Part shown: piece by piece, positions 4,550-10,188 of the stretch
Numbering within the stretch: position 1 is the first letter of the stretch
Layout of the letters: each line of letters opens with the position of its first letter
Assembly: GCA_029252555.1 (NCBI GenBank)
Contig: JAQXBF010000005.1
Location: 178,460-222,011, forward strand
Source of the DNA: Porticoccaceae bacterium
Lineage (GTDB): Bacteria > Pseudomonadota > Gammaproteobacteria > Pseudomonadales > Porticoccaceae
Length of the DNA stretch: 43,552 nucleotides
Direction of reading: 5' to 3'
Made by a program: the position numbers and the translations under genes
Notes under the pieces: model-generated
Databases searched by the model: none
The model's input: the letters and a program-made list of their open reading frames with translations, nothing else
Told to the model about the DNA's origin: nothing

Positions 4550-5041
4550 ATGCGTATAGGCCATGGTTATGATGTCCACGCCTTTGGTCCAGGCAATGCA
4601 CTAATTTTGGGTGGTGTCAGCATTCCCTATCAGCATGCATTTGTCGCCCATTCCGATGGCGATGTTCTTATCCACGCATTGATTGATGGCCTGCTGGGTG
4701 CGCTGGCACTCGGCGATATTGGCCAGCATTTTCCCGATACAGACCCTGCTTACCGGGGCACTAATAGCCGCGATCTATTGTCATTGGTTGTGGGCATTAT
4801 GGTTGCACAAGGCTATGTTTTGGGTAATGCAGATATGACGATTATTGCCCAGAGCCCAAAGATGGCTCCTCACCTTGAAAAAATGCGCCTCAATTTGGCC
4901 GCCGATCTCGGCTGTAATATTGAGCAGATTAATATTAAAGCCACCACCACTGAAAAATTAGGTTTTACTGGCCGCGAAGAGGGTATCGCCTGCCATGCCT
5001 CGGTACTGTTGCAGCTGGCTGCACCAAACCCCAGAGTCTGA
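4550..5041 (+). CDS. ispF: 2-C-methyl-D-erythritol 2,4-cyclodiphosphate synthase
   Basis: Cyclises CDP-methylerythritol 2-phosphate with loss of CMP, the fifth MEP-pathway step, as a trimeric zinc enzyme. The 163-residue product has the N-terminal [12 protein letters not shown] with metal ligands Asp8 and His10, and His42 in [11 protein letters not shown], all at E. coli positions. [11 protein letters not shown] and the C-terminal [15 protein letters not shown] motif are present. It is separated from ispD by 34 bp, so the two genes remain separate rather than forming the IspDF fusion seen in some lineages. Confidence 0.97.
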
Positions 5042-6011
5042 GCTGATTAATCCGAATCATTTTGATTTCCATCAGATGCCACGCCTCCATGGCGAGCCTT
5101 TGGGGCAGGCATTATTCCGCAGTTGTCCCGAGGATTTTTGTGTTGATGAGATAATGGATTTGCAGCCCAGTGGTGAGGGTGAGCATCTGCTGTTGCATAT
5201 TCGCAAACGCGACCAAAATAGTCAGTGGGTTGCCGGGCTACTAGCCAGCTTGGCGGGCATTAAACGCAATGATATTGGTTTCTGTGGCCTGAAAGATCGA
5301 TTTGCGGTGACGACCCAATGGTATAGCCTGCATCTCCCGGGTAATGATATTGATCTCGCCCGATTAGAGCACAGCGACTTCGATATTCTCGCTGCCCATC
5401 GCCACCATAAAAAGCTCCGTCGCGGTATGCATCAGGGCAATCAATTTAGCATTCGGTTGCGCCAGTTTGAGGTGCATCCTGCTCTTCTGGATGAGCGGCT
5501 GCGCCTTATTGAGCAACTTGGAGCCCCCAATTACTTTGCTGAACAGCGTTTTGGTCACCAGGGAAATAATCTTCGGGAAGCCCAGCGTTTGATCGATGGC
5601 GATCAACTTAAGGGCAATCATCGGGGCACTGGTATGTATCTATCCGCAGCTCGATCATGGATATTTAATCTGCTGCTAGAGAGGCGCATAGCAATCAACA
5701 ACCTGCGCGCCCCAATCGACGGGGACGAGTCTGCCGCGCTATGGGGTAGAGGCCGTTCCAATACCAGTGCCGAGGTCAACAAGATTGAAACCGCTGTTTT
5801 GGCCGACTGGCAAAGTTGGTGTTATGCCTTGGAACATTCTGGGTTAAAGCAGGAGCGCCGTGATCTGCTGTTGCGGCCCCGGGGGTTAGCCTGGAAATGG
5901 GTGGCAGAGGATCAGTTACAACTCAGTTTTGCACTGCCAAACGGTGCCTATGCCACGGCATTACTGCGAGAAATAGCCGAATTATTCCGCCCTGAATTTA
6001 AAGCCCTGTGA
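4995..6011 (+). CDS. truD: tRNA pseudouridine(13) synthase TruD (start uncertain)
   Basis: Isomerises uridine 13 of tRNA-Glu to pseudouridine. Family motifs are clear: [40 protein letters not shown] containing the catalytic Asp, [32 protein letters not shown] and [10 protein letters not shown]. The longest frame starts at ATG 4995 inside ispF and gives 338 residues. The first 15-20 residues do not look like TruD, and the first conserved block is at ATG 5076 (311 residues, catalytic Asp74). A start between these points, such as CTG 5043, is also possible; no strong ribosome site decides it. In most relatives surE follows, but here the next gene is pcm. Confidence 0.93.
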
Positions 6012-6104
6012 TATATTGTAGGTCTTGTGGTGTGGCGGTATACAGCCAACCCAGAACGTATTTTTCGCAGTCTTTACAGACCGTTTTCAAAATAGGAGCA
6101 AGGG

Positions 6105-6776
6105 GTGAACTCGATCGAACTAGCTGGTATTGGTATGACGTCCCAGCGCACTAGAGAGAGGCTAATTCAGCGTCTTATAGATCAGGGCATCAGTAGCCAG
6201 CCTGTACTCGATGTTATTCGAATGACACCGCGACATATCTTCCTCGACGAGGCCCTTTCCCACCGCGCCTACGAAGACACTGCACTACCTATTGGTTTCT
6301 CCCAAACTCTGTCCCAGCCCTATATCGTAGCCCGAATGACTGAGATTTTACTGAGTGGCGGTCGACTTAAAAATGTATTGGAAATAGGAACTGGGTCTGG
6401 CTACCAGACCACTATTTTGTCCCAGCTAGTTGAGCAAGTATCCACCGTAGAGCGCATTGAGCCGCTATTGCGAAAAGCCAAAGAACGCTTTCGCAAGTTG
6501 GGCTTAAAGAATATTACCGCTGAGTTATCCGATGGCAGTTTTGGCTGGGACAAGCATGCGCCCTACGACGGTATTATTACCACTGCGGCGCCGCAAACTG
6601 TGCCAGAAGAGCTATTTAGACAAATGGCCCCAGGTGGTATTTTAGTGATTCCGGTGGGCAATGGTGTCTCCCAGGATCTCCGAGTGCTTCGCCGCGTGAG
6701 TGATTCAGCTGAATTTGATGAAGAAATTGTTGAAAAGGTAAAGTTTGTCCCTCTGCTGGGGGGGCTTTCCCGCTAG
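6105..6776 (+). CDS. pcm: Protein-L-isoaspartate O-methyltransferase
   Basis: Repairs damaged proteins by methylating L-isoaspartyl residues with S-adenosylmethionine in the cytoplasm. The product is 223 residues, slightly longer than the roughly 208 of E. coli. The family entry segment (TPRHIFLDEALSHRAYEDTALPI, in two halves around FLDEA and AYEDTALP), GFSQTLSQPYIVA, the SAM-binding LEIGTGSGYQT, and VERIEPL are visible. It starts with GTG, supported by AGGAG at 6094-6098. It lies 93 bp after truD with no surE between, and it leads the pcm-DUF368-nlpD-rpoS run. Confidence 0.96.
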   Translation: MNSIELAGIGMTSQRTRERLIQRLIDQGISSQPVLDVIRMTPRHIFLDEALSHRAYEDTALPIGFSQTLSQPYIVARMTEILLSGGRLKNVLEIGTGSGYQTTILSQLVEQVSTVERIEPLLRKAKERFRKLGLKNITAELSDGSFGWDKHAPYDGIITTAAPQTVPEELFRQMAPGGILVIPVGNGVSQDLRVLRRVSDSAEFDEEIVEKVKFVPLLGGLSR

Positions 6777-7772: not shown

Positions 7773-8486
7773 ATGAAAGCAAAGCAAATAATATTGCTCC
7801 TATTCACCTTTGCCATTGCGGGCTGCTCAACTTATTCAGCGCCTATTATTACTAGGGATCAGCCACCGAGTATTCGTATCACAACTCACCAGGTTGCTGA
7901 GGGCGACACCCTGTATTCCATTGCCTGGCGCTACGATCTCAATGTGCGCTTGCTGGCCAAGGCAAATCGCATTAGCCAGCCCTATACCATTGGTAAGGGT
8001 CAGGTTTTGTCTCTCAACACAACAGGTGTGTCACTGGGAGAGCCAATACCGATTTCAGCGCAAAATAAACCTGTCGGCAGGGCTCAACCCTCTTCAGTGG
8101 CCAAATCGCCCCCTAAACCTATGGTTTACAGCAAAAATCTCCGTTGGCAATGGCCTGTTAAGGGCAAAGTCATCAAGGGATATAGCCCTAAAGATCTGCG
8201 TAAGGGCCTTAGTATCAAGTCTAATGCTGGTCCCGGTGTGCGCCCCGCAGCGCCTGGAATTGTGGTCTATGTTGGTGATGGATTGCGTGGATATGGTAAG
8301 CTAGTTATCATTAAACACAGTGAAATCCTCCTTAGCGCCTATGCGCACAATGAAAAAATATTGGTAAAAGAGGGGCAAACTGTAAAAAGTATGGAAACAA
8401 TCTCAAAATTAGGGCCTAAGGAAACGTTGTACTTTGAAATAAGGAAAGATGGCTACCCTGTAAATCCGACTGTATATATAGATTAA
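7773..8486 (+). CDS. nlpD: NlpD-like lipoprotein (LysM plus degenerate M23 domain)
   Basis: Activator of septal amidases, anchored in the outer membrane. The 237-residue product has a lipoprotein signal with lipidated Cys18 (FAIAGC). A LysM domain follows at about 37-80 (HQVAEGDTLYSIAWRYDLNV), then a C-terminal M23/LytM domain (GIVVYVGDGLRGYGKLVIIKH, split around GLRGYG, and SAYAHNEKILVKEGQTV). The zinc ligands of active M23 peptidases are missing, as in E. coli NlpD, so an activating rather than hydrolytic role is expected. Compared with NlpD the stretch before LYFEIRKDG is a few residues short and His of LHFEIR is Tyr. It directly precedes rpoS, as in most gammaproteobacteria; in E. coli the main rpoS promoter lies inside nlpD. 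Confidence 0.9.
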   Translation: MKAKQIILLLFTFAIAGCSTYSAPIITRDQPPSIRITTHQVAEGDTLYSIAWRYDLNVRLLAKANRISQPYTIGKGQVLSLNTTGVSLGEPIPISAQNKPVGRAQPSSVAKSPPKPMVYSKNLRWQWPVKGKVIKGYSPKDLRKGLSIKSNAGPGVRPAAPGIVVYVGDGLRGYGKLVIIKHSEILLSAYAHNEKILVKEGQTVKSMETISKLGPKETLYFEIRKDGYPVNPTVYID

Positions 8487-8630
8487 ATCTGATTTTGGGA
8501 ATAAAAAAATACAAAAATTAAGAAAGATTAATAAGGGAGGGAAGGGTAATCACGTTGTGAAGTAAGGTTCTGGGTTAGCGCCGGAATTGGCTGCTAAATA
8601 CATGGAAGATCGTGCAAAAGGGATGCGAAC

Positions 8631-9554
8631 GTGATGGATGAGGCGTTTAGTTTAGATCAGGAAGCTCAGGCTACTGATAACAAGGAAGAGTCACCGGAGA
8701 TAAGTCATCAGGTCATTGTTGCAACTAGTTTTTATCTAAAAGAAATTGGCTTTGCGCCGTTACTAACGGCCGAGGAAGAGGTTTACTGCGCCCGTAAGCT
8801 TCACCAAGGCTGTGAAGCTTCACGGCATAGAATGATTGAAAGCAACTTGAGATTGGTGGTTAAAATCTCTCGGCGCTATGTCAATCGAGGTCTTGAACTT
8901 CTCGATCTGATCGAGGACGACAATTTAGGTCTAATGAGAGCGGTATAAAAATTCGACTCAGAGCTGGGTTATAGATTTTCGGCCTACGCCACGTGGTGGA
9001 TTCGTCAATCCATTGAGCGCGCTCTTATGAATCAAACTCGAACCATTCGGCTGGTAGTTCATTTGGTTAAAGAGCTCAATGTCTATCTGCGTGCCTCACG
9101 CAAGCTGGCTCAGCGTCTGGACCATGCGCATACACCGGAGGAAATTGCAGAAGAAGCGGGCAAGCCTGTGGCCGATGTGCTTAAAATCCTCAGTTGGAGT
9201 GAGCGTATCTCGTCTATCGACGTTCCTGGCGCGGTCAAAGAGAAAACACTGGTTGAAACCATTGCGGATGACAATGGCTTTAGGCCTGAGAACCAAATCG
9301 AGGGCAAGAACCTGACCACAGTGATAAATGAGTGGTTAGAGCAGCTGCCCGAGAAACAGCGTGAGGTGCTGGTCAGGCGTTTTGGTCTGGTCAATTATCA
9401 GGAAGAACCTCTGGAGCAGGTTGGGAGAGAAATTGGCCTTACCCGCAAGGGTGTCAGGCAGATACAGGTAGATGCCTTGCGCCGTCTGGGGGATGTGCTG
9501 CGCAAGCATGGCTTAAGCAGTAATGAGTTATTTGCCGACCTTCAGGATGGCTGA
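8631..9554 (+). pseudogene. rpoS: RNA polymerase sigma factor RpoS, interrupted by an in-frame stop
   Basis: Stationary-phase and general stress sigma factor. Translation from GTG 8631 (or ATG 8634) gives regions 1.2-2.1 ([38 protein letters not shown]) and reaches LMRAV. Codon 106 (8946-8948) is then TAA where the family has Glu (normally AVEKFD). The same frame continues without any indel through KFDSELGYRFSAYATWWIRQ, MNQTRTIRL, region 3 and region 4 (EKQREVLVRRFGL, VGREIGLTRKGVRQIQ) to 9554. A single GAA to TAA change explains it. The 105-residue product would stop in region 2.2 and lack promoter recognition. An internal ATG at 9027 has no ribosome site and would omit the conserved 8949-9026 stretch. 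Several usually invariant residues also differ (LIEDDN for LIEEGN, RLVVH for RLPIH, TRKG for TRER). A sequencing error cannot be excluded. Confidence 0.88.
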
Positions 9555-9657: not shown

Positions 9658-10188
9658 TTATTCAGCTAGGTAGCGCTCTCTCGATGCCATCACTTCAGCG
9701 CGGGCGGCGTCGGCATTGTCCCAACCCTCTACTTTTACCCATTTGCCAGGTTCGAGTGCTTTGTAGTTTTCGAAGTAATGCCCGATCTGAGCAATGAGCA
9801 ATTCTGGAAGGTCTGTGGCCTCTTGAACATGATCATACATCTTGGTCAGCTTGGTATGAGGCACAGCTAGGAGCTTGGCGTCGATACCAGATTCGTCACT
9901 CATATTTAAAACCCCAACCACACGACTGCGAATAACCGCACCGGGCATTACTGGGTAGGGTGTTACAACCAATACGTCTAAGGGGTCGCCATCTTCCGAT
10001 AACGTCTGGGGTACATAGCCATAGTTGGCTGGGTAGAACATTGGAGTAGCCACAAAACGATCAACAAAGATAGCATCGCTGTCTTTGTCTATTTCATATT
10101 TGATAGGGTCGTGATTAGCTGGGATTTCAATAACGACATTGATGTCGTTGGGCAGGTCTTTACCGGCTGGTATGTCGTTGTAGCTCAT
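9658..10188 (-). CDS. ppa: Inorganic pyrophosphatase (family I)
   Basis: Hydrolyses pyrophosphate to two phosphates, pulling biosynthetic reactions forward; soluble, metal dependent. The product is 176 residues, the same as E. coli. Motifs: [34 protein letters not shown], and the signature DGDPLDVLV with its acidic magnesium ligands, then GYENYK-like [20 protein letters not shown]. It is monocistronic, convergent with rpoS across a shared terminator, and has its own promoter at 10231-10259. Confidence 0.97.

Follow-up and report, generated by a model that had tools for sequence, protein, structure and literature searches.

The window analysed here, a stretch of 43,552 nucleotides from a Porticoccaceae bacterium, contains an rpoS gene with a stop codon inside its reading frame, and this raises the question whether the lineage has lost its general stress sigma factor. 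In many gammaproteobacteria the survival of starvation and stress is under the control of RpoS, and its decay in an uncultured species informs on the way of life of the lineage. An earlier note on this DNA had interpreted the stop as a loss of RpoS, with a recent or culture-selected mutation or a sequencing error as possible causes. According to our analysis the orthologous, single-copy rpoS has very probably turned into a true pseudogene, on which selection has been relaxed in this lineage.

Translation of positions 8631-9554 from the GTG at 8631 revealed a single internal stop, the TAA at 8946-8948 (codon 106, forward strand). Downstream of it the frame is open up to the TGA at 9552-9554, and no frame-breaking insertion or deletion was found. 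This agrees with the earlier note, and so does the comparison with relatives as regards the conserved glutamate said to have been replaced: the residue at this site is glutamate in 18/18 other aligned members of the genus. The stop lies within region 2, no single continuous frame extends over RpoS regions 1.2 to 4, and the gene is disrupted relative to its intact orthologues. By translation, profiles and Pfam it is divided into a 5′ part (8631..8948, forward strand), which comprises region 1.2 and the first part of region 2 and is ended by the stop, and a 3′ part (8949..9554, forward strand), in which region 2 continues in frame and is followed by regions 3 and 4. The longest listed ORF past the stop begins at the first downstream ATG (9027..9554, forward strand, 175 aa), before which no Shine-Dalgarno sequence could be recognised by eye. 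In a comparison with three relatives over the initial ~18 kb of the window, rpoS was the sole conserved gene found to be interrupted; we read the remaining stop-bearing rows as belonging to intact genes in another frame or strand, or as lying past the start or end of the respective gene.

Both pieces can be assigned to RpoS rather than to RpoD or other sigma-70 groups, NF004207 and TIGR02394 being the top-scoring models for each of them. The 5′ piece matches TIGR02394 with 6.4e-30 at profile positions 10-88 and the 3′ piece with 2.6e-74 at positions 90-285; the single profile position absent between them is the stop. Scanned separately, each piece stays under the whole-protein cut-off of the RpoS models, and as one read-through match the gene reaches 370.4 bits, just below the cut-off of 378.7. 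It is located 3′ of nlpD in the order pcm-nlpD-rpoS, within a synteny common to the window and its relatives, eno-ftsB-ispD-ispF-truD-pcm-PF04018-nlpD-rpoS-ppa, in which PF04018 is a membrane protein and ppa is encoded on the opposite strand. The two neighbours are intact. These are the nlpD-like gene with LysM and peptidase M23 domains (7773..8486, forward strand), the usual upstream neighbour of rpoS, identified by Pfam and orthologues and with no raised omega, and the conserved downstream neighbour ppa (9658..10188, reverse strand), encoding inorganic pyrophosphatase and supported by Pfam, orthologues and the branch test. Within the same block, truD is directly followed by pcm (4995-6776 of the window) without surE between them, and the same tight spacing occurs in the relatives; in the gene order of E. 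coli, surE is found between truD and pcm.

The damage to the gene extends beyond the stop codon. Our RpoS alignment comprised 46 genomes of the genus, that is this copy and 45 relatives in which the gene is complete or almost so, and G041 was omitted because a contig end cuts its gene. At 115 residues which are invariant in all other genus copies, the window RpoS has 10 changes; in the relatives at most two otherwise-invariant residues are changed (G010, G013) and in most of them none. With invariance at a looser 93%, G013 (16/151) and G034 (14/151) are above this genome (13/147), which we put down to shared divergence, as both are divergent genus members with changes in common. Where the five nearest relatives agree, the window gene carries 23 private missense changes, and a similar count of each relative against the four others gave 1 to 8. 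Such changes are present in both halves (7 in the 105 residues 5′ of the stop, 16 in the 201 residues 3′ of it), so that neither fragment seems to be specially kept. Among the changed sites are adjacent residues of the LIEEGN segment in the core-binding region 2.2 and of the region 4.2 recognition helix, which binds the -35 element. When the solved RpoS chain 7f0r_F was aligned to the RpoS of a relative, the two segments proved to be conserved there as well. Given ~20 excess missense changes and a nonsense/missense mutational ratio of ~0.05 in rpoS, about one nonsense change is expected, and one is observed.

Selection was analysed by a branch codon model in which the study lineage had an omega of its own, using eight genomes and a tree from flanking genes. 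For rpoS, omega was 0.136 on the study lineage versus 0.037 elsewhere (LRT 18.4, p = 1.8e-5). It was raised neither with other lineages as foreground (G007, p 0.92; G012, p 0.24; G021, lower, p 0.073) nor, on the study branch, for any of the eight flanking genes tested, of which hlyD (p 0.036) and ispD (p 0.015) had a lower omega. Among the nine genes tested, relaxation is hence confined to rpoS. An omega of 1 over the whole study branch is rejected for rpoS (LRT 26.4, p 2.8e-7), and a branch value that is raised and still well below 1 indicates constraint for most of the branch. If normal selection was followed by neutrality, the unconstrained part makes up roughly a tenth of the terminal branch, (0.136-0.037)/(1-0.037), a rough estimate because synonymous sites are near saturation in the rpoS data set. 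With about a tenth of the branch relaxed, a mutation that is brand new or was selected in culture is unlikely, though the stop as such may postdate the relaxation.

These results also bear on the other explanations. That the gene is functional and its stop stems from faulty sequencing or assembly, which would suit an otherwise open frame with a single stop and no indel, is very improbable, because a change of one base in the record would not yield 10 altered invariant residues, 23 private missense changes and an omega that is raised in rpoS and not in its neighbours. We give the same slim chance to readthrough of the stop, or a restart downstream of it, leaving some RpoS activity. An open frame 3′ of the stop and an ATG at 9027 would permit this, and omega below 1 also fits residual constraint. 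However, neither part of the gene has been spared, and with changes in the core-binding as well as the -35 segment a rescue by readthrough or by a split protein is unlikely. Moreover, a restart product from the ATG at 9027 would be without regions 1.2 to 2.3, and TAA terminates 11/24 ORFs of the window, which makes strong general suppression unlikely. The base context of the stop, on which the earlier note had relied against readthrough, is insufficient by itself; a readthrough protein would be altered at residues for core binding and promoter recognition. The study genome (2.30 Mb, 48.7% GC) is represented by an assembly in 40 contigs with a completeness of 97.47%, in which no second rpoS was found, the two further matches being a 630-aa RpoD-like frame and RpoH. 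That a functional copy resides in the missing ~2.5% and the window copy is dispensable and degenerate, as an assembly of this completeness in 40 contigs would allow, is extremely improbable, since the broken gene occupies the ancestral nlpD-rpoS-ppa locus and no genome of 112 has two rpoS matches among the matches listed.

We return to the reading of a true pseudogene. Purifying selection on RpoS would have been relaxed after the lineage had separated from the closest relatives sampled; missense changes would have accumulated over the entire frame, and one nonsense change would have truncated the protein within region 2. Regions 3 and 4 are predicted to be lost entirely by this truncation, together with the remaining stretch of the core-binding and -10 segments. 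With 105 residues, the product would be unable to act as a sigma factor, leaving the RpoS regulon silent or taken over by RpoD. We infer this order of events and these physiological effects from the state of the gene. The claimed loss of RpoS function is supported, at the level of the sequence, by the stop, the missense decay, the raised omega and the lack of another copy in the assembly. A likely driver would be a trade-off as in E. coli, where loss of RpoS improves nutrient scavenging. Most likely the lineage stopped needing RpoS, or fared better without it, and the gene decays in place next to neighbours that are under selection.

The rpoS leader with its Shine-Dalgarno block (8565..8630, forward strand) is still present and, by alignment, strongly conserved among the nearest relatives. 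It is almost the same as that of G021 and near those of G007 and G005, despite near-saturated synonymous sites in rpoS. The rpoS leaders of the genus retain a Shine-Dalgarno block that is rich in purines and has GGA-like motifs flanked by GCA and TGC-like arms, an arrangement reminiscent of a CsrA site; csrA is present in the study genome. A conserved RNA structure in the leader was considered and rejected, as RNAalifold on 27/46 leaders returned no pairs. The window leader has no advantage in folding over shuffled sequences (z 0.26), and Rfam gave no gathering-level match for it.

Within the genus, a search with a query that started 3′ of the study genome's own stop gave an rpoS match in 47/50 genomes. 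Three of these 47 contain an in-frame stop, namely the study genome and those of two other species, G003 (L127), with a single TAA in region 4, and G010 (L128), in which a single TGA falls on the WW pair in region 2. The latter two genes are otherwise conserved, and their stops could be fresh alleles or errors. No relaxation was detected for G003 (omega 0.051 vs 0.056, p 0.71), and the difference for G010 is not significant (0.054 vs 0.031, p 0.20). Stops in rpoS (3/47) are also not significantly more frequent than in the genus RpoH (0/47; one-sided exact p ~0.12), and nlpD showed no stop among the matches listed. Three candidate losses were rejected: in G009 and G033 the position of nlpD at a contig end explains that most or all of rpoS is missing, and in G040 the nlpD locus was likewise not found. 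The gene is intact in some members of ~1.3-1.4 Mb (G019, G024, G044, G049) and broken in the 2.3 Mb study genome; its retention does not seem to be a matter of genome size alone.

For the whole family, a threshold of 1e-70 yielded rpoS matches in 86/112 genomes, of which three contain stops among the matches listed; the other 26 include many incomplete assemblies. Sixteen of the 112 genomes, picked mainly for missing rpoS, were searched again at 1e-10. Remnants of rpoS in shifted frames, adjoining an intact nlpD, were detected in two other genera of the family: G107 (L164, 6307-7168) has one TGA, and G081 (L165, 189-1020) has two TGA in the profile match. In G081 the tblastn pieces have no stop inside, the contig is only 4.5 kb long, and the breakage is possibly an error. 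Nine further genomes with an intact nlpD (G052, G064, G075, G082, G090, G100, G105, G106, G110) contain no rpoS in at least 3.8 kb of contig after nlpD. Since ppa was likewise not found in these stretches, the downstream border has changed too. Two genomes were left unclassified, G098, where the contig ends inside nlpD, and G063, where nlpD is matched in part. The strain-specific loss which the earlier note had considered is disfavoured, because rpoS is repeatedly found broken or missing within the family.

A tree of flanking proteins, in which 50 of 54 loci were kept, places these cases as about nine separate losses, with several nodes being weak (55 to 71%): the study genome, G003, G010, G107, the group of G100, G105, G106 and G110, G081, the pair of G075 and G082, G064, and G052. 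The count is eight if G081 joins the pair, and six without the possibly erroneous G003, G010 and G081. G090, with no rpoS match and nothing after nlpD, stands outside the nine events. For the four other members of its genus that were included (G087, G088, G091 and G093), what was recovered of the flanking block did not suffice for a place in the tree, so that their rpoS would be in a different setting. We consider it an even bet that RpoS has been lost repeatedly and independently, about nine times in the 50 genomes of the tree, in a series which leads from a fresh stop through a stop with missense changes, as in the window, and a frame-broken remnant to clean absence.

The decay of rpoS is a known kind of event, caught here midway. 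For E. coli, two reports describe natural nonsense alleles and a selection against rpoS when nutrients are poor (PMC7527412, PMC2700278). The null alleles known there from nature and the laboratory include nonsense ones, such as the codon-33 amber of K-12 and that of a VTEC strain whose RpoS is shortened by 86 residues (PMC2700278). The window gene resembles these alleles in that a nonsense mutation truncates the same sigma factor in its normal genomic position and presumably shifts the balance between stress survival and nutrient use, a trade-off that may by analogy apply to the window lineage. The E. coli alleles are within-species polymorphisms of an otherwise intact gene, whereas the window rpoS has many added missense changes and represents a species. 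RpoS is also stated to have been lost from whole lineages of alpha- and epsilonproteobacteria (PMC7527412, which cites Chiang and Schellhorn 2010). These are likewise losses in natural evolution, but ancient and complete ones, while the loss in the window family appears to be in progress at several separate stages. In the literature on SAR92, SAR86, Porticoccaceae or streamlined plankton we found no description of rpoS loss, which says little. Judging by its genome size and GC content, the study organism may belong to a marine SAR92-like group; its nearest named matches are at most 62% identical.

If the repeated loss is true, the general stress response would be under recurrent negative selection in gammaproteobacteria of the Porticoccaceae family, which are probably aquatic, and the trade-off known from E. 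coli would be played out at species scale. The family offers a set of species for comparison, some with RpoS and some without it at a single syntenic locus; such a set could show which genes leave together with RpoS and whether its loss tracks habitat.
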